A stretch of DNA of 51,242 bases from Methanocella sp. PtaU1.Bin125 (GTDB taxonomy: Archaea > Halobacteriota > Methanocellia > Methanocellales > Methanocellaceae), in contig MVRA01000076.1 of NCBI GenBank assembly GCA_002067315.1, positions 1 through 51,242 on the forward strand, written 5' to 3'. Every line of letters begins with the position of its first letter. Position 1 is the stretch's first letter. Both the position numbers and the translations under genes were made by a program. The notes below the pieces were generated by a model. The model had not been told where the DNA came from. It did not search any database and saw only the letters and a program-made list of their open reading frames with translations. Shown one piece after another: positions 9,503-34,606 of the stretch.

Positions 9503-10141
9503 CTAAATGACCGAGTCTATCCAGACGATGTCCATCGTCTCCAGGTCGATGATCGCCGCCTGCCCTTCCGCCGCGAACCCCGGGTTGATCACCCAGGCCC
9601 CGTCTTTGATTTTACCGCGCTGCTTGTGGTAGTGCCCGCAGATGACGACGTCCACCCGGTCCAGCGCCGCGCGGAGCGCCTTGCTGCCGCCGGGGCCGTG
9701 GTCGGTCATGTCGAGCGTCTCCAGGGGCGGCTGATGGGTGACCAGCACGGTCTTTGCCGGGGGCGTGTGGCTCAGCAGCACGTCCAGCTTGTAGGCCATC
9801 GTCTCCTCGGTGACCTCGGAAGGCGTATTGTTGCCGGTCGGCGTCGAGTAGCCCAGGCCCATGAACTCCCGGCCCATGATGATCTTCGGGGTCTCGTCGA
9901 GGTTGACCGCGTAGGCGCCGATCGCCTGGACGACCTCCGGCGGGTCCCAGTTGCCGGGCACGGCGAGGACACGCGGGCAGAAATGCTTCAGGATGGAGAT
10001 GCTGCGCACCGCGTTTTCCGGCGGCCCCCCGTGGGTGAAGTCGCCGGCGACGATCACCGCGTCCACCGGGTCGCTCTTCTTGATGATCCCGTCGAGCCGG
10101 AAGAATTTGCCGTGGATATCGGAGAGAGCAAGAACTTTCAT
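9503..10141 (-). CDS. Calcineurin-like metallophosphoesterase
   Basis: From ATG 10141 the product is 212 residues and starts MKVLALSDIHGKF, the exact start usual for the family. The frame stays open 15 codons further upstream without family similarity. Metal-binding motifs appear in order: DIH (D8, H10), AGDFTHGG, PGNWD, VTHQPP and CGHYH. The reaction is hydrolysis of phosphomonoesters or diesters with two bound metals; close relatives are annotated YfcE-like. It is divergent from the zinc-ribbon gene at 10326, with operator-like repeats between them. Confidence 0.9.
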   Translation of the reverse strand: MKVLALSDIHGKFFRLDGIIKKSDPVDAVIVAGDFTHGGPPENAVRSISILKHFCPRVLAVPGNWDPPEVVQAIGAYAVNLDETPKIIMGREFMGLGYSTPTGNNTPSEVTEETMAYKLDVLLSHTPPAKTVLVTHQPPLETLDMTDHGPGGSKALRAALDRVDVVICGHYHKQRGKIKDGAWVINPGFAAEGQAAIIDLETMDIVWIDSVI

Positions 10142-10204
10142 ACTATGAACTCGGTCAGCCGGGTAATTATATTTTTCCGGACTCACAGAGCAGGCGGATT
10201 CCGA

Positions 10205-10270
10205 CCGTATACAGTACTGTCGATACCGGCCATTTACAGTACGTCTGCACTGACCGTATATAGTACGGCC
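10205..10270. promoter_or_regulatory. Array of three TACAGTAC-like sites
   Basis: TACAGTAC occurs at 10210-10217 and 10235-10242, and TATAGTAC at 10259-10266, spaced 25 and 24 bp. The first and third are preceded by CCGTA. Regular phasing of just over two helical turns suggests cooperative binding of a regulator in the divergent promoter region of the phosphoesterase and the zinc-ribbon genes. Confidence 0.45.
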
Positions 10271-10325: not shown

Positions 10326-10691
10326 ATGCCCGGCAAGGCATGGTCGATCGACTGGATTTTCGAGAAGAAGGCGGTTTGCTTTAACTGCGGCGCGGAAGCC
10401 GCACAGAAAATAGAGATGCTCCCCGTGAAGACCACGGTGACATGCATGAACTGCGGGGCAGAGCGGGTGTACAACATCCACGGCACCTACGTGGCCACGC
10501 CCATCCACTCGCTGCCCGCGCATAAGCACAAGTACGACATCTGGCGGTTCGACAAAGACGCCGTCTGCCCCAACCACGGCGCCATCGCCCGGCACGCGGT
10601 GACCGTGGACGAGTACGTTTCGACCATCGTGTGCCCGGTGTGCCACTTCACCCACCTGTACGACTTCGCGTTCTTCAGCCGCTCAAAATGA
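10326..10691 (+). CDS. Cys-rich double zinc-ribbon protein, paralogue 1
   Basis: This 121-residue protein has two probable zinc ribbons: CFNC (18-21) with CMNCGAERVYNIH, then CPNHG with CPVCHFTHLYDFAFFS at the C-terminus. Between them is HKYDIWRFDKDAVC. It is clearly paralogous to the proteins at 10764 and 11049: all share an N-terminal C-x2-C, an ETxVTCxNC core and R-x-Y; the longer two also share DIWxF and F-x-x-LY-F. I do not recognise the family. A nucleic-acid or protein-binding role would fit zinc ribbons but is inference. Confidence 0.82.
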   Translation: MPGKAWSIDWIFEKKAVCFNCGAEAAQKIEMLPVKTTVTCMNCGAERVYNIHGTYVATPIHSLPAHKHKYDIWRFDKDAVCPNHGAIARHAVTVDEYVSTIVCPVCHFTHLYDFAFFSRSK

Positions 10692-10763
10692 GGTCAGCCG
10701 GGTTTCAGGAGGCCACCGAAAATGCGTATCATCGTTTTATTCTCCGGGCCTGACCGTTGATCA

Positions 10764-10955
10764 ATGGAACTCCGGGATCTCGAAAAGATGGGGCGATGCC
10801 CGAACTGCGGGAAGGAAGCCATACAGGTCATCGAGGCGAAGCCCGGCGAGACGGTCGTCACCTGCATGAACTGCGGCGCGGCGAGACATTACGATGATGC
10901 CGATGAGGGCGTCGGCGTGCAGGCGACGTTCGACGATGCCCTCCCGAAAGGGTGA
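10764..10955 (+). CDS. Short zinc-ribbon protein, paralogue 2
   Basis: The 63-residue product contains only the N-terminal ribbon of the trio: CPNCG, a 19-residue beta-rich stretch, then CMNCGAARHY, followed by a short acidic tail. It is 72 bp downstream of paralogue 1 in the same direction. It may be a natural single-ribbon member or a truncated copy. No second ribbon is found in any frame before the stop. Confidence 0.75.
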   Translation: MELRDLEKMGRCPNCGKEAIQVIEAKPGETVVTCMNCGAARHYDDADEGVGVQATFDDALPKG

Positions 10956-11048
10956 TCCGCTTTTTGCCTGCCGCCCCGGGGGCGGGAATCCATCATAAAA
11001 GCGGAACATGGTTTTAAACATTAAAATATCTCTAGAGATAGGATTTTT

Positions 11049-11432
11049 ATGATGGGCGAGCCGGTCGAGGGCAGGCGATGGGACATCGAGAAGGAGGCCG
11101 CGTGCTTCAACTGCCACAAGGGCGCCACCCAGCTCATCGAGATCGGCGATTCGGCCGCGACGGTCACCTGCACCAACTGCATGGCCGTGCGCCATTACAC
11201 GATACACCGGATCGACTTGCCGGAGAAGAAGGGCGAGTTCGAGGATAAGAGCTTCCGGTACGCCCACGATATCTGGAACTTCGGGTACATGGACAATTGC
11301 CTGAACTGCGGGAACTGCGTGGAGAACGAGGTGAACGTGGACGAGCGCCGCATCCGCACTTTTTGTCCCGGGTGTTATTTCACGCGTCTGTATGAGTTCA
11401 ACATGTTCAGCGAGCCCCGGTCGCGACGATAG
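11049..11432 (+). CDS. Cys-rich double zinc-ribbon protein, paralogue 3
   Basis: This 127-residue protein has the same two-ribbon plan as paralogue 1. CFNC...CTNCMAVRHYTIH is ribbon one, and CLNCGNC with CPGCYFTRLYEFNMFS is ribbon two. DIWNF lies between. The second ribbon keeps Cys where paralogue 1 has CPNHG, so metal ligation differs between copies. A TATA-like TTAAAATATC about 25-30 bp before the ATG suggests its own promoter. Function unknown. Confidence 0.82.
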   Translation: MMGEPVEGRRWDIEKEAACFNCHKGATQLIEIGDSAATVTCTNCMAVRHYTIHRIDLPEKKGEFEDKSFRYAHDIWNFGYMDNCLNCGNCVENEVNVDERRIRTFCPGCYFTRLYEFNMFSEPRSRR

Positions 11433-11454: not shown

Positions 11455-11745
11455 ATGGTCTTCGTCGACCCCGAAGCGGGCGTCAGGTGCAGCAGCATCA
11501 TCGCGCTGTCCTACCGGTGCCATCTGCCCCTCCGGGCCCGGGAGACGTGCTTCGGCCTGATGATGGAAGGCGAGCGCGAGACGGTCAGGGGTTTCATGGC
11601 GCTGCTGAAGGACACGTTCCCTGCAGGCCTGTTCCTGAAGCGCCGGCCGTTCTCCATCGGCGACACCCGGGTCTGCGCCCGGACGTTCCGTACCACCGGG
11701 CTGCGGCGTGCGACGGAGCATTTCAGAAACAACAGCCGCTCCTAG
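11455..11745 (+). CDS. Conserved-looking 96-aa protein of unknown function
   Basis: The likely start is ATG 11455, preceded by a GGAG at 8-nt spacing; upstream in-frame residues look non-coding. The 96 residues include RCSSIIALSYRCHLPLRARE, a central helix ETVRGFMALLKD and a basic C-terminus. Codon use matches neighbouring genes. It lies 22 bp after paralogue 3 and may be cotranscribed. I do not recognise the family. Confidence 0.6.
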   Translation: MVFVDPEAGVRCSSIIALSYRCHLPLRARETCFGLMMEGERETVRGFMALLKDTFPAGLFLKRRPFSIGDTRVCARTFRTTGLRRATEHFRNNSRS

Positions 11746-11794: not shown

Positions 11795-12709
11795 GTGAAG
11801 CTGAACTCCCGACTACTCATCGGCCCGGTCGGCCTGGCGATCTTTATGCTGGTCGTCCAGGTGATCGCCCTGCTCCTCGTGTCGCCGCTCAAGTTGTACC
11901 AGATGAGCGCGTTCGAGAACCCCGAGAGCCTGTGGAACCCGATCATCTACATCGTGCTGATCGTCGTGTACGCGGCCGTCGTCCTGCTGATCATCAAGTA
12001 CCGGCTGCGCTGGCTGCTCAAGCTGATCATCGCCATGGCCGTGTTCGCCACGCTGGTCTACGTGCTGTTCGGCATCGGCGCGCTCTTCTTCCCCTCCGCC
12101 GCGGCCGAGTACCTGGCGATAGGCGCCTTCGGCATCGGGGTCGTGCTGACCGCGCTGATGCTCGTCTACCCCGAGTGGTACGTGGTCGACGTCGTCGGCA
12201 TCCTCACCGCGGCCGGCGCCGCGGCCCTGTTCGGCATCTCGCTGGCCGTGCTCCCGACGCTGCTGCTGCTCGTCGCGCTGATCGTGTACGACTACATCGC
12301 CGTCTACAAGACGAAGCACATGCTCAAGCTGGCCGAAGGGGTCACCGACCTGAACCTGCCGATCATCTTCGTGCTGCCCATGAAGCTCAACTACTCGTAC
12401 ATCCGCAGCAAGGTCCCGATCAAAGAGCTGAAAGAAGGCGAGCGCGAGACCTTCATCATGGGCCTCGGCGACGCCGTCATGCCCACCATCCTCGCCGTCT
12501 CCGCCAACGCGTTCATCGCGGCGCCCGTCATCGGCTTCGTCAACGTCCCGGCCCTGGGGACCGTGGCCGGCACGATGGTCAGCCACGCGGTGCTCATGTA
12601 CTACGTGCTGAAAGGCAAACCCCTGGCCGGGCTGCCGTTCCTCTGCACCGGCGCCATCATCGGCTTCGCGATCGGGTGTCTCGTGGCAGGCGTTAACCCG
12701 CTCTTTTAA
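11795..12709 (+). CDS. Presenilin-like A22 intramembrane aspartyl protease
   Basis: The 304-residue polytopic protein has about nine hydrophobic segments. The two catalytic Asp motifs of presenilin/signal-peptide-peptidase homologues are present: YD at Y165-D166 (LIVYDYIAVY) and GLGD at 223-226 (IMGLGDAVMP). The third motif, usually PAL, reads GLPFL near residue 281. Such archaeal enzymes cleave transmembrane helices, typically remnant signal peptides. Start is GTG at 11795. The hydrophilic loop between the motifs (KVPIKELKEGERE) is where such enzymes vary. Confidence 0.88.
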   Translation: MKLNSRLLIGPVGLAIFMLVVQVIALLLVSPLKLYQMSAFENPESLWNPIIYIVLIVVYAAVVLLIIKYRLRWLLKLIIAMAVFATLVYVLFGIGALFFPSAAAEYLAIGAFGIGVVLTALMLVYPEWYVVDVVGILTAAGAAALFGISLAVLPTLLLLVALIVYDYIAVYKTKHMLKLAEGVTDLNLPIIFVLPMKLNYSYIRSKVPIKELKEGERETFIMGLGDAVMPTILAVSANAFIAAPVIGFVNVPALGTVAGTMVSHAVLMYYVLKGKPLAGLPFLCTGAIIGFAIGCLVAGVNPLF

Positions 12710-12958: not shown

Positions 12959-13762
12959 TCAGGTGACGTCGACGGCGGCGGTGATGCGCCGGACGGCCTC
13001 GTCGAGGTCGCCCATGCGCACCTCGATGGCGCCCCGGGGGCATTTGACCGCGCAGCGGCCGCAGCCCCGGCACTGGTCGCCGATGACGGCACGGCCGTCC
13101 TCGATCGTAATGGCGTTCATGAAGCAGGTCTTCGCGCAGGCCCCGCAGCCGGTGCACCGGTCGGTCACCTCGATCGAGAGGCCCGGCATCTTCGTGACCT
13201 TGCTGCCGATGGCAGGCGCCAGCGAGGGGAGAATCTTCCACAGGCAGCAGCACGGGCAGCAGTTGCAGATGGTCAGCAGCCGGTCTTCCTGTCCCGTGCC
13301 CAGCCATAGGGAGTCGAGCTTGTTGCGGCCGACCAGATGCGCCAGCCCGGCCTCCCGGCATTTGCGGAGGTGCTCCTTCGCCTCCTCCTTCGTGGCCATA
13401 TGGCCCAGAGACGGGTCGATCTTCAGCGTCGCCTCGCCCAGGAAGAGACAGCCGAGTTCCAGGGGATAGTCTTTACAGCCGGAGGCCTTGCGGCAGATGC
13501 ACCAGTCCATGATGAACCGGTGGCCGGAGCGCTCGATGAAATGCTCCGCGGCCTGCGAAGGGAGGAACGTCTGCCCGGCGGGCTCGATCACCCGGCCGAC
13601 CTCCACGACGCGGTCCTGCGGCAGGTACATGATGTCGTCGCCCCCGAAGAGCGCGCGATCGACGACCCTGTCGATCACGGGGAGACGGGTGGCGCGGGCG
13701 AGGGCGAAGCGCCGGGGAAAGCCGCGCATCAGGAAACCGACCAGCCAGCTTGACCGGGACAT
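12959..13762 (-). CDS. Ferredoxin-type protein with two 4Fe-4S motifs and extra Cys clusters
   Basis: The 267-residue protein ends in a classic 2[4Fe-4S] domain: CTGCGACAKTC (203-213) and CRGCGRCAVKC (231-241). Two additional Cys groups precede it: CIC...C...C at 88-105 and CNCCPCCC at 166-173, which could bind another cluster or metal. No transmembrane segment is present, so it is probably cytoplasmic electron transfer. The electron partner is not in the window. Start ATG 13762. Confidence 0.85.
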   Translation of the reverse strand: MSRSSWLVGFLMRGFPRRFALARATRLPVIDRVVDRALFGGDDIMYLPQDRVVEVGRVIEPAGQTFLPSQAAEHFIERSGHRFIMDWCICRKASGCKDYPLELGCLFLGEATLKIDPSLGHMATKEEAKEHLRKCREAGLAHLVGRNKLDSLWLGTGQEDRLLTICNCCPCCCLWKILPSLAPAIGSKVTKMPGLSIEVTDRCTGCGACAKTCFMNAITIEDGRAVIGDQCRGCGRCAVKCPRGAIEVRMGDLDEAVRRITAAVDVT

Positions 13763-13836: not shown

Positions 13837-16800
13837 TCACGCCATCTCGACCCAGTAGCCACGGCCCGGCAGGATGCCGGTGATTTCCGGGTAGTACTCG
13901 TAGAAGTAGTCGTCCGGGTCGGGGCAGTAGTATACCCAGTTCTGCGCGGCCGCGTCCCAGCCCCACACGGTGACCGCGTCCGGGTACATGGCGGCGGGCG
14001 AGGAAGACGTTTCGCCGGTCAGGCCGACGAAGTTCCAGCCGTCGACCAGGGCGGCCGGGCTGGCAGGGGCGCCTGCCGGCACCGTACCCTGTACCGATAC
14101 CGTCGCCGTCCGGTTCATCTCCACCCAGTAGGCCTTGCCCGTTTCCAGCGCCGTGAGCGCGGGGTAGTACTCGTAGAAGTAATCCCCGGAGTCAGGGCAG
14201 TAGTATACCCAGTTCTGCGCGTCCTCGTCCCAGCCCCAGATGTTGACGATGCCGGCCCTGACGTCCGCCGGGAAGATGCCCGTTATGCTGTTGTCCTGCA
14301 GCGTCAGCGGGATCGAGATCAGGTTCCAGCCGCTGACCAGCGTGTAGTTATACGTCTCGACGGTCGTCGGCAGCTCGTCATCCATGATGGTGATCGTCGT
14401 AGACGATGGCGTCCCTGCCGTGGCGTTCTTCAGGTTACCCAGTGACAGGGTGATCGTCCGGTTTCCGCGGTAGGCGGCGTCGTTGATCAGGCTGACGCTG
14501 AACGAGGCCGACGTGACGCCCGGCGTGAAGCTCAGCATGCCGCTTCCGCCCGTGTAGTCGGTGCCCGCGATCGCGCTGCCGCCGGAGACGGAGTAGTTGA
14601 CCGATACGGGCTTGCTGGTGCTGCCGGAGAGGCTGACGGTGATCGTCGCCGCGCCCGCGTTCTCCGCGACCGTGTACGTTGCCGCCGCAAACCGCAGCGT
14701 CGGCTGCGCGTCATTATCAGTGATGGTGATCGTGGTTGAGGCGGGCGTCCCTGTAGAGGCATTTTTAGGATTGCTCAAGGTGAATACGATCGTCTCGTCG
14801 TTCTCGTCCATCGCATCGTTCAGGATGTTCACGTTGAAGCTGGCCGTTGTTGTGCCGGGGGCGAAGGTGAGCGTGCCGGCGCCTCCCGTGTAGTCCGTAC
14901 CGGCGGTGGCGTTTCCGCCAGTTACTGAATAGTTGACCGAAACCGGGAGCGCGGTGCTTCCCGTAAGATTGACTGTCACTGTCGCCGCGCCCGCGTTCTC
15001 CGCGACCGTGTACGTTGCCGCCGCAAACCGCAGCGTCGGCTGCGCGTCTTCATCCGTGATGGTGATCGTGGTTGAGGCGGGCGTCCCCGTGGTGGCGTTT
15101 TTGGGACTGCTCAGCGTCAGTATAATCGTCTCGTTGTCCTCGTCGACCGCGTCATTGAGGATGTTCAGGTTGAAGCTGGCCGTTGTTGTGCCGGGGGCGA
15201 AGGTGAGGTTGCCCGAGCCGCCGGTGTAGTCGGTGCCCGCGGTGGCGTTGCCGCCGGTGACTGCATAGCTGATCGACGCAGCCAGGCTCGTGCTGCCCGT
15301 CAGCGTGACCTGAACCGGCAGCGTCCCGGCGTTCTCGTTTACGCTGTTCTGGGCCAGGCTGAACCTGATGGCGGGAGGCGCGTCATCGTTGATAATGGTA
15401 GCCGTCGTGGCCGATGGCGTGCCGATCGTGGCGTTTTTAGGGTTGCTCAGCGTCAGCGTGACCGTCTCGTTGCCTTCGTATGCGGCATCGTTCACCAGGC
15501 TGAGGTCGAAGTAGGCTGTGGCATTGCCCGGGGCGAAGGTGAGGGTGCCCGAGCCGCCGGTGTAGTCGGTGCCCGCGGTGGCGTTTCCGCCCGTCACGGC
15601 GTAGCTGACCGACGCCGGGAATGCGGTGCCGCCGGAGAGGCTGACGGGGATGGTGATTTTCCCCGCGCTCTCGGCGCCGGAGTACTGCGCGGCACCGAAC
15701 CGCAGGACAGGCGCGGCATCATCGTTCCTGATGATGACAGTGGTACTGTTCGGGCTGCCGAGGGTGGCGTTCACCGGGTCGCTCAACGATAACACCACTG
15801 TCTCGTTGCCTTCATACACCGCGTCGTTCACGATCGCCAGGCTGAAGGTGGCGTCCGTCGCGCCGCTGGCGATGGTGACCGTGCCGGAGCCGCCGGTGTA
15901 GTCGGTGCCGGGGGTGGCGTTGCCGCCGGTGACCGCGTAGCTGACCGATGCCGGCGCGACAGTGCTTCCTTCGCGTACCACCGTGATCGCGACGGTCCCG
16001 GCGTTTTCCCCGGCCGTGAAGGACTGTCCGCTGAACGTCAGCGTCGGCCACGACGGCGGCACCGGGGGCGTCGATTCTATCACGGTGTCCGCGTCCTCCG
16101 TGTAGACTTTCAGGCACACGTCGGTGTTCGTGGGGTTGCCCTGGCTGTCGGCCCCGATGTCGGACCAGGCGACCCCGTTGCCGCTCACGAAGCTCTCCGA
16201 GGCGTTGGAGGTCGCGCCGGAGGTGTAGCCGCTGATGCGGGACTCAATGCAGACCGGGTAATTATATCCCGGCGTGTGGAGCCGCACCTCGACCCGGAAC
16301 GTCTGGCCTGCGCCGAGGGTCACCGGGGTGTCGAGCGTTACCGTGTGGTAGCCGGGGAGGCCGAACGCGCCGGACTGCTGCCGGTTGAGCGTGTCGTCCC
16401 GGTAAATATTGAGCTGGTAGTCGGAGTTGACCTGGGGCGTGTAGAACCCCACGGCCGAGAGCGACTCGTTGGACCCGGCCGTATAGCTGGCGGCGAACCA
16501 CGCCACGTCGCTCCCGTAGCCCGCGTTGCCGGTCCAGCCGAGCGGGTCGTGCTGGTAGACGTGATCGTAGTTGCCCGTCGCTTCAGCGGTGAAGACCGCG
16601 TTCGAGGTGCCGACGATCCGGTCGTAGTACGAGATGTAGAAGTACCCGCCCTCGCCCCAGTCCTCGCCCCAGCTGTTCCGGGCGATGAAGGCGCCGTCTC
16701 CCGGGGGCGCCGAAGCGAAGTTGGACCGGCTGTAGCTGTCGTTCCATCCCACCAGCGCGATCGCGTGGTTGGCGCCGGTGGAGTTGTAATAGTAGGCATG

Positions 16801-17736
16801 CGTGGCGGCGTTGTAGTATGACGCGCCCCAGTAGCAGGCGGTGTAGACAGCCCCGTAAGCCTGGATGGCCTGCTTCAGGTTGCCGTTGTCCGTGCTGTTC
16901 GCCCGGTCGGGTATGAAAAGGACCTCCTGCACGTGCATGTCCGCCGGGAGCACGGGCGAGGACAGCGAGGTCTCGACATAGGGGTCGTCCGCCTCGTCCA
17001 CCGGCCCGGCCCATCGCGTGAGGTAAGCGGCAGACATGAACTCGTTGCCTCCGCTGTTCGGGCCCACGTCGAACCCGTGCGTGTTCTTGAGGTTGTTTTC
17101 GGAGAAGTCTGCCACCTGCGCGGGCATCAGGTAAGACTCGAGGGAGGCATAGGTCGCGAAAGCCCAGCAGCTTCCCGAGCTGCCCTGGTCCCGGACCCCT
17201 GTCAGCCGGCCCAGCGTCCTCAAATCGTACGAATCCCCGCTGTCGCCGAGAAGATCGACGCCCTCCGGTACATAGGTATCCGGCAGCTCCCCTGACAGGT
17301 CAAGGTCGACCTCGCTGCCCTTCAGGAACGACAGGTCCACCGGGGCGGGGACCAGGCCTGGGGCGGGACCCGTCGTTGCCATGGCCTGGAGCAGCGCGGG
17401 CCCCCGGGACAAACGGGCCTGCTGGTAGGCGGCAAACTGCGGATTGACCGGCGCTGCCTGCGCCGGCAGCAGGCCCTTACCCGGGGCCGCGTCCGGGGCC
17501 GGCACAGTCTGCGCGACGGCCGGCAGCGGGATGACGATCGCCGGGTAGAGACATGATAGAACGGTAGCAAGTGCGAGAAGCATCGAAAACGTCTGGCTGA
17601 CCCGACTGCCGGTCTGGCCAGAGGAATCTTTCCGGACGGTGTCGCCGGGTCTGCCTGATGGTGATATCGCTATTCGTATTCCCCCGCTGTTACCCCCATC
17701 TGAACAGCCACAACCCCTCGCGGCACATGCAGTCAA
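13837..17736 (-). CDS. Secreted papain-family protease with lectin-like domain and Calx-beta repeats
   Basis: Up to 1299 codons from TTG 17736; the first ATG is 17583 (residue 52), directly at the hydrophobic signal segment MLLALATVLSC. A TATA box at 17773-17783 favours the TTG. The C1A protease domain has Q184, catalytic C190 (SGSCWAFA), H324 (NHAIALVGW) and N354 (ARNSWG). A lectin-like domain follows (about 375-545). Then come five Calx-beta repeats of about 113 residues, each opening like PTLRFAAATYTVAENAG. Two C-terminal copies of a W-G-W-D...WVYYCPD...YWVEM module end the protein. It is exported and probably acts on cell-surface or extracellular protein or polysaccharide. Confidence 0.88.
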   Translation of the reverse strand: MTACAARGCGCSDGGNSGGIRIAISPSGRPGDTVRKDSSGQTGSRVSQTFSMLLALATVLSCLYPAIVIPLPAVAQTVPAPDAAPGKGLLPAQAAPVNPQFAAYQQARLSRGPALLQAMATTGPAPGLVPAPVDLSFLKGSEVDLDLSGELPDTYVPEGVDLLGDSGDSYDLRTLGRLTGVRDQGSSGSCWAFATYASLESYLMPAQVADFSENNLKNTHGFDVGPNSGGNEFMSAAYLTRWAGPVDEADDPYVETSLSSPVLPADMHVQEVLFIPDRANSTDNGNLKQAIQAYGAVYTACYWGASYYNAATHAYYYNSTGANHAIALVGWNDSYSRSNFASAPPGDGAFIARNSWGEDWGEGGYFYISYYDRIVGTSNAVFTAEATGNYDHVYQHDPLGWTGNAGYGSDVAWFAASYTAGSNESLSAVGFYTPQVNSDYQLNIYRDDTLNRQQSGAFGLPGYHTVTLDTPVTLGAGQTFRVEVRLHTPGYNYPVCIESRISGYTSGATSNASESFVSGNGVAWSDIGADSQGNPTNTDVCLKVYTEDADTVIESTPPVPPSWPTLTFSGQSFTAGENAGTVAITVVREGSTVAPASVSYAVTGGNATPGTDYTGGSGTVTIASGATDATFSLAIVNDAVYEGNETVVLSLSDPVNATLGSPNSTTVIIRNDDAAPVLRFGAAQYSGAESAGKITIPVSLSGGTAFPASVSYAVTGGNATAGTDYTGGSGTLTFAPGNATAYFDLSLVNDAAYEGNETVTLTLSNPKNATIGTPSATTATIINDDAPPAIRFSLAQNSVNENAGTLPVQVTLTGSTSLAASISYAVTGGNATAGTDYTGGSGNLTFAPGTTTASFNLNILNDAVDEDNETIILTLSSPKNATTGTPASTTITITDEDAQPTLRFAAATYTVAENAGAATVTVNLTGSTALPVSVNYSVTGGNATAGTDYTGGAGTLTFAPGTTTASFNVNILNDAMDENDETIVFTLSNPKNASTGTPASTTITITDNDAQPTLRFAAATYTVAENAGAATITVSLSGSTSKPVSVNYSVSGGSAIAGTDYTGGSGMLSFTPGVTSASFSVSLINDAAYRGNRTITLSLGNLKNATAGTPSSTTITIMDDELPTTVETYNYTLVSGWNLISIPLTLQDNSITGIFPADVRAGIVNIWGWDEDAQNWVYYCPDSGDYFYEYYPALTALETGKAYWVEMNRTATVSVQGTVPAGAPASPAALVDGWNFVGLTGETSSSPAAMYPDAVTVWGWDAAAQNWVYYCPDPDDYFYEYYPEITGILPGRGYWVEMA

Positions 17737-33967: not shown

Positions 33968-34606
33968 TCACCAGCCGCGGGCATATTCGTCGAAGCACGG
34001 TATGCAGACGAACCGGCCGTCCCGGACCCGGGCGCGGGACTCGGCGACCATCTCGCCGCACTTCGAGCACTGCACCGACTGGAAAAGCCGGGCCTTCCCG
34101 GGTATCGCCGCCTCGACGCGCCGGATATCGAACATCGTCTCGACGGGCGCCTTCCTCATCGCCTCCGTCATGCTTTCCATGCGCCGCCGGAACGCTTCCG
34201 TCTCTTTTTTCGTGGCCTTCCCCGCCGCGACCCGGGGGCGAAGCCTGCCCAGCTCGGGGTCCAGGTCGTCAATGTTAAACGAAGGCTTTAATGCGATGCG
34301 GACGGCGTCGTTCGTGTTCCTGTTGATAAACGTGTAAGCCTGCTTTCCGTAGTCTTTAAAGATCAGGTTGCCCTTGCCAAGTGTGCAGCCCGTGACTACC
34401 TGTACAGCGTCGACGCCGCACGCGTCGTTCTCCACGATGGCGACGAGCTCCTCGTCCACGTCTCTCTCCGTGGCCAGCTCTCGAACGGCCGCCTCAGCCG
34501 CCCTGTAGCCGAGCATCAGGCCCGGGCAGGTATGGCCGTGGAACCTGACAGCATCGGCAAACGATGCGATCTTTTTCTTCCTGTGCATGCGCGGTTCATC
34601 GTGCAT
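33968..34606 (-). CDS. FmdE-family protein with C-terminal zinc ribbon
   Basis: The 212-residue full-length FmdE protein has FHGHTCPGLMLGYRAA (H23, H25, C27) and ENDACGVDAVQVVTGCTLGK, which together form the metal-binding core, plus NLIFKDYGKQAYTF. A C-terminal CSKCGEMV...CIPC zinc ribbon follows a charged linker. Though named after formylmethanofuran dehydrogenase subunit E, such proteins are not catalytic subunits. It is 42 bp upstream of the methyltransferase in the same direction and probably cotranscribed. Confidence 0.9.
   Translation of the reverse strand: MHDEPRMHRKKKIASFADAVRFHGHTCPGLMLGYRAAEAAVRELATERDVDEELVAIVENDACGVDAVQVVTGCTLGKGNLIFKDYGKQAYTFINRNTNDAVRIALKPSFNIDDLDPELGRLRPRVAAGKATKKETEAFRRRMESMTEAMRKAPVETMFDIRRVEAAIPGKARLFQSVQCSKCGEMVAESRARVRDGRFVCIPCFDEYARGW

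Follow-up and report, generated by a model that had tools for sequence, protein, structure and literature searches.

The three consecutive cysteine-rich genes at positions 10326–11432 of the window (the whole 51,242-nt stretch of DNA that was analysed) belong to a methanogen family of about 120-aa double-ribbon proteins, which usually occurs once per genome. By sequence comparison, the trio is a local Methanocellaceae expansion of this mostly single-copy family and not a separate system. The family is genuine and conserved, and none of the libraries searched has a name for it, yet it is of a common kind, that of the small zinc-ribbon proteins. The relevant features of the window are the following.

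10197–10266, no strand assigned: three direct repeats of 21 nt, at spacings of 25 and 24 (100, 81 and 71% to the first)
10326–10691, plus strand: ZR1 (gene 1), 121 aa, two predicted zinc ribbons, the second with one Cys-to-His ligand change
10764–10955, plus strand: ZR2 (gene 2), 63 aa, single-ribbon half copy with the counterpart L026 in genome G001
11049–11432, plus strand: ZR3 (gene 3), 127 aa, two predicted zinc ribbons; the copy preceding the marker-6 paralogue in 4/4 Methanocellaceae genomes
11455–11745, plus strand: paralogue of marker 6 (DUF2102), 96 aa when read from ATG 11455; PF09875, 57.4 bits versus the cut-off of 25
11795–12709, plus strand: PSH, presenilin-type intramembrane aspartyl protease, GTG start; PF06550, 272.4 bits versus the cut-off of 23.9

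If the ribbon proteins form a family of their own, it is one that is conserved and mostly single-copy in several methanogen lineages, with a well-defined predicted fold and no name in the libraries searched. The analysis also brought to light a marker-6 paralogue of the Methanocellaceae that appears to be coupled to two neighbours, a ribbon gene and the gene of a presenilin-type protease. Among the papers listed in the literature searches, none describes the ribbon family or this coupled paralogue.

The three genes, their spread and their origin

The original prediction of three adjacent paralogous zinc-ribbon genes was confirmed. The named motifs were present in the translations (CFNC..VTCMNCGAERVY, CPNC..VTCMNCGAARHY and CFNC..VTCTNCMAVRHY), as were DIWRF/DIWNF and the C-terminal CPVCHFTHLYDF/CPGCYFTRLYEF in the long pair ZR1/ZR3. 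The local alignment scores of ZR1-ZR3, ZR1-ZR2 and ZR2-ZR3 were determined to be 193, 115 and 102 versus shuffle maxima of 54, 43 and 54, respectively, and none of the 2000 shuffles reached them. The search of the window's own genome (3,243,770 bases, E ≤ 1) with the ZR3 query returned ZR3 itself, ZR1 (E 4.5e-20), ZR2 (E 2.4e-6) and no further relatives. The description of the middle gene as a single-ribbon version needs refining: ZR2 is a half copy of the same double-ribbon unit and has a counterpart in G001, which we take to be Methanocella arvoryzae. In comparison with the G001 counterparts, the dN and dS values were 0.20 and 0.83 for ZR3 and 0.40 and 0.86 for ZR2. Since dN was lower than dS in both cases, ZR2 and ZR3 behave as coding genes.

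The distribution of the family was determined with profile A1 (E ≤ 1e-5) in 392 Halobacteriota genomes, in which the DUF2102 (methanogenesis marker 6) protein was scored as well. The ribbon family was detected in 71 and DUF2102 in 245 genomes. All 71 ribbon carriers were DUF2102-positive, none of the 147 DUF2102-negative genomes carried a ribbon protein, and 174 of the 245 positive genomes were without it. The carriers among the DUF2102-positive genomes amounted to 4/4 in family f1 (that of the window, presumably the Methanocellaceae), 5/7 in f2, 14/14 in f4, 28/33 in f11, 5/14 in f14, 3/3 in f21, 8/8 in f22, 4/11 in f23 and 0/151 in all other families; the two f2 genomes without a ribbon were 77% and 61% complete. 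Of the 36 genomes in the phylum to which Methanocaldococcus sp. SG1 (G392) belongs, 31 had a ribbon match, one of them in two broken pieces. A scan of named contigs with two patterns resulted in 77 stretches and 63 confirmed loci, a set which may omit records near the window's genome; Methanococci contributed 7 of these loci, and the other 56 came from records of Methanomicrobiales type or of unclassified Euryarchaeota. The phyletic spread, which had been proposed as a check, thus takes in several methanogen lineages, and the family is not specific to the trio. Among viral contigs, 29 stretches fitted the pattern and none of them encoded a ribbon relative. A defence or phage origin was also considered and rejected, PADLOC and PHROGs yielding weak zinc-ribbon-type matches alone.

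In the tree, the eight Methanocellaceae rows formed one group (86/84) adjoining f2 (100/99), and ZR2 paired with the half copy of G001 (98/90); ZR1, ZR2 and L025 were long rows of uncertain placement, and of the 26 inner branches 9 were well supported and 9 open. The grouping indicates that the trio resulted from duplication inside the Methanocellaceae, where the tandem diversification suggested earlier was borne out.

Predicted fold and conserved residues

The AF2 model of ZR3, based on the 25-row family alignment A5, resulted in two consecutive four-stranded ribbons (pLDDT 87.5, pTM 0.79). The strands covered residues 11-18, 25-32, 36-41 and 47-56 in ribbon 1 and residues 76-83, 90-97, 101-105 and 112-121 in ribbon 2. 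The ZR2 model contained one ribbon and a loose tail (pLDDT 77.6, pTM 0.54). A helix of at least 4 residues was present in neither model, and that of ZR3 was all-beta. The halves of the family profile aligned with each other at 98.1% probability (hhalign, global mode), and the halves of ZR1 aligned above all 2000 shuffles. An argument for internal duplication from the ZR3 sequence alone was dropped, as 2 of the 2000 shuffles reached its half-to-half score. According to the models, the long copies ZR1 and ZR3 are two homologous four-stranded zinc ribbons with two CxxC knuckles each, formed by internal duplication.

Seven of the eight ligand columns of A5 were Cys in 25/25 rows and the eighth in 24/25; the sole exception was a His of ZR1 at the column of ZR3 Cys87. 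The proposed variation of the ligands between Cys and His therefore comes down to this one change in ZR1, and the H/Y position past the last CxxC does not belong to the ligand columns. Gln28, Ala46 and Trp76 (ZR3 numbering) were invariant and Arg48 was near-invariant. The number of Cys residues was 8 to 12 in 24 of the 25 rows. Across all 25 rows, the pI ranged from 5.2 to 9.1 and the net charge from -6 to +8; ZR2 was acidic (pI 4.6). Nucleic-acid binding is not favoured by these values because the charge is not consistently basic.

Gene neighbourhoods and possible function

The 96-aa protein downstream of ZR3 scored 51.7 bits with TIGR03272 (marker 6), below the cut-off of 125.95, whereas the canonical marker 6 of the same genome (contig C99) scored 147.8 bits. 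Like the canonical proteins aligned, it is above the DUF2102 cut-off and has the common ETCFG-like motif; unlike them, it is without the glycine-rich stretch and the C-terminal part. On these sequence grounds it is a diverged marker-6 paralogue, a DUF2102 member and not the marker-6 equivalog. The best E value in a PDB sequence search with it was 0.93. Two DUF2102 matches occurred in 7 of the 245 positive genomes, namely the four Methanocellaceae genomes, G139, G303 and G377. In 4/4 Methanocellaceae genomes, the paralogue either adjoins ZR3 or overlaps it. Upstream of its presumed start in the window, the frame has a single ATG, GTG or TTG, namely an ATG at 11392 that lies 41 nt within ZR3, and the residues ETW preceding the presumed start are kept in G002 and G003 (the latter presumably M. 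paludicola). This suggests that the two are overlapping, coupled genes and that the paralogue probably starts inside ZR3. Markers 5 and 6 are reported to form a conserved operon in Methanosarcinales (PMC9425974); of the eight proteins that were scanned in the surroundings of the paralogue, none was a DUF2112 (marker 5).

PSH scored 322 bits with NF041679 (cut-off 125), and its translation contains VYDY and GLGD; YD and GLGD are the motifs of presenilin-type proteases. Farther along the window, a 267-aa protein (12959–13762, minus strand) has two C-terminal 4Fe-4S ferredoxin motifs, with no family model above cut-off in the rest. A long ORF at 13837–17736 (minus strand) presumably encodes a papain-like (C1A) protease that is secreted and carries Calx-beta-like domains in repeated form. 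A DksA/TraR-type zinc finger (40.1 bits, cut-off 24.9) lies at 33983–34084 (minus strand) in a 222-aa open frame.

The order of ribbon gene, marker-6 paralogue and PSH was kept in 4/4 Methanocellaceae genomes; the second copy of G003 (L031) had no conserved neighbour. In f2, the ribbon gene was followed by Tsr3, of an rRNA-modification family, and then PcrB in all four loci examined, the genes being named from L034 alone. In the G392 phylum, 20 loci were fetched from the 31 carriers, and 19 of them had Cdc48 downstream on the same strand, at a distance of 50 to about 310 bp. The same arrangement was found in 7/7 named Methanococci loci, a set which overlaps the 20; in these 19 and 7 of the loci L079-L085 and L152-L171, the single-copy Methanococci relative is directly upstream of Cdc48. 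The 56 other named loci gave no match of Cdc48. Here porD was convergent within 450 bp in 44; a same-strand thermosome gene lay at most 350 bp upstream in 23 and was absent or farther in 33; the distances are those between BLAST hit edges, and contigs ending early were scored as misses. The length of cluster c43, found beside the Methanoculleus copies, had suggested Cdc48, but its sequence reads otherwise; we take it to be a thioredoxin-like DUF255 protein. What is presumably a metal-chelate-type ABC transporter gene string lies within about 6 kb in L042 and L046.

As no partner is common to all lineages, the neighbours tell little of the basic function. The earlier idea that the trio, the 96-aa protein and the A22 protease may together make up a dedicated system stands in so far as the order is kept in the Methanocellaceae. 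In other methanogens the partners are Cdc48, thermosome and POR, or Tsr3 instead, so that the basic role of the ribbon cannot rest on the Methanocellaceae operon.

We favour, at somewhat less than even confidence, the reading that the ribbon family assists the machinery of transcription or translation as an accessory factor. The two-ribbon model with its duplicated halves, Elf1 as the first-ranked zinc ribbon, the weak PRK14892 and PF05129 matches (14/25 and 6/25 members) and the position of Tsr3 in f2 point in this direction. In such a factor, the zinc of both ribbons would be structural, the Elf1-like pair would be a small module by which the protein docks onto a large nucleoprotein machine, be it RNA polymerase, the ribosome or pre-rRNA, and Gln28, Ala46, Trp76 and Arg48 would be fold or contact residues. 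In the Methanocellaceae, one copy would be co-expressed with the marker-6 paralogue and PSH, whose genes follow it, while the additional copies would be specialised. However, the Elf1 matches are weak, the charge is not consistently basic, and the neighbours in other lineages give no indication of transcription or translation. In another reading, that of a cofactor of protein quality control, the double ribbon would be an adaptor binding an unfoldase, a chaperonin or a membrane protease: Cdc48 in the G392 phylum and the Methanococci, the thermosome in 23/56 loci and PSH in the Methanocellaceae are all consistent with it. We consider such a cofactor unlikely, since the partner differs per lineage, Cdc48 is found in 0/56 other named loci, the thermosome link is missing or farther in 33/56, and f2 has Tsr3 instead. 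A protein that, jointly with the marker-6 paralogue, helps methyl-coenzyme M reductase (MCR) to mature or serves another methanogenesis complex would agree with the adjacency of ZR3 to that gene and with a DUF2102 protein in all 71 Halobacteriota carriers. It is improbable in view of the 174/245 DUF2102-positive genomes without a ribbon, by which the ribbon is not needed for methanogenesis as such. Moreover, the accessible text of PMC12176620 and PMC9584954 names no zinc-ribbon protein for the MCR activation complexes, which contain McrC, Mmp3, Mmp7, Mmp17 and A2 plus DUF2098 (PMC12176620) or Hsp20 (PMC9584954); the terms 'zinc' and 'Mmp6' had 0 occurrences in that of PMC12176620. A combination of the two, with tandem Elf1-like ribbons as a methanogen-restricted quality-control cofactor (of Cdc48 or thermosome) which the Methanocellaceae recruited with the marker-6 paralogue and the presenilin protease for a methanogenesis complex, is hardly to be expected.

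The repeats lie between a divergent metallophosphoesterase gene (9503–10144, minus strand) and ZR1 and are a possible operator. Their core, CCGTATAYAGTAC, was found twice exact at 10197–10266, and the rest of the genome has a single further copy that differs by one mismatch; this would suit a DNA-binding ribbon protein controlling its own gene string. We give such a regulator little chance: the reversed control pattern of the core occurred 11 times in the genome, inspection by eye did not show these repeats ahead of the G001, G002 and G003 relatives, and the charge is not consistently basic. In G002 (L030, 8700–8960), repeated and inverted segments were seen by eye in the long intergenic stretch that precedes the ribbon gene. 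A TATA-like stretch, TTTAAACATTAAAATATC, was read about 36 nt before the ZR3 ATG; accordingly, the genes from ZR3 to PSH may be transcribed together, with ZR1 and ZR2 on transcripts of their own. A zinc reservoir or metallochaperone would fit the 8 to 12 Cys residues, the weak match of the HypA model in 3/25 members and the putative transporter string near L042 and L046. It is very improbable, as the conserved non-Cys residues and the well-formed ribbon fold look structural and the string is present in few loci.

Comparison with known families and structures

None of ZR1, ZR2 and ZR3 reached a curated Pfam or NCBIfam cut-off. ZR2 was narrowly below those of Lar (PF14354, 28.1 versus 28.6 bits) and the TFIIB-type zinc ribbon (PF08271, 27.5 versus 29 bits). 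No significant PDB sequence match was obtained with the family profile A1 (best E 0.56) or the ribbon profile A7 (best E 0.019, eS27). The profile search proposed as a check thus yielded no known, characterised family in Pfam, NCBIfam or PDB, in line with the unknown family of the original prediction. Foldseek gave no match to solved structures at E ≤ 0.001 for the ZR3 or ZR2 model; its top rows for ZR3 (TM 0.31 or less) were not zinc ribbons and were rejected. After re-alignment, Elf1 (5xog_M, 6ir9_M) was the first-ranked zinc ribbon for both models, with Z 4.6 and 1.4 Å over 44 residues for ZR3 and Z 4.6 and 2.6 Å over 47 residues for ZR2. For ZR3, an unrelated row (Z 4.7) stood level with Elf1, and no Z of 5 or more was obtained. 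Other rows, CCDC61 (rank 1, Z 4.7, 4.6 Å), sliding clamps and sortases for ZR3 and Tudor domains and others for ZR2, were discarded as they are not zinc ribbons and their Z values are tied with noise. In the models, the nearest fold of the trio is the Elf1 zinc ribbon, by a weak match; a structural match at Z 4-5 may merely reflect a common arrangement.

Rpo12, eS27, aIF2-beta and Rpb9 share the zinc-ribbon fold with the family and give weak sequence or fold matches, but they are single ribbons of other architecture without a significant match. Among the NCBIfam models, PRK14892 (archaeal Elf1) was the most frequent weak match (E ≤ 0.01) of the A5 members. The window proteins P0001, P0002 and P0003 scored 19.0, 26.3 and 12.1 bits with PRK14892 (cut-off 109) and 10.2, 17.7 and 15.8 bits with PF05129 (Elf1; cut-off 29.8), respectively. 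A true Elf1 in related genomes was also considered and rejected, PF05129 matching at E ≤ 0.001 in 9/60 genomes and above the cut-off in 0/60. Elf1 has one ribbon followed by a C-terminal helical tail and associates with RNA polymerase together with Spt4/5. A four-stranded zinc ribbon with two CxxC knuckles is common to Elf1/ELOF1 and the trio, but this fold alone does not define Elf1. In contrast to Elf1, the long copies of the trio have tandem ribbons in an all-beta model without the C-terminal helix and score far below the cut-off; Elf1 membership fails on both score and architecture.
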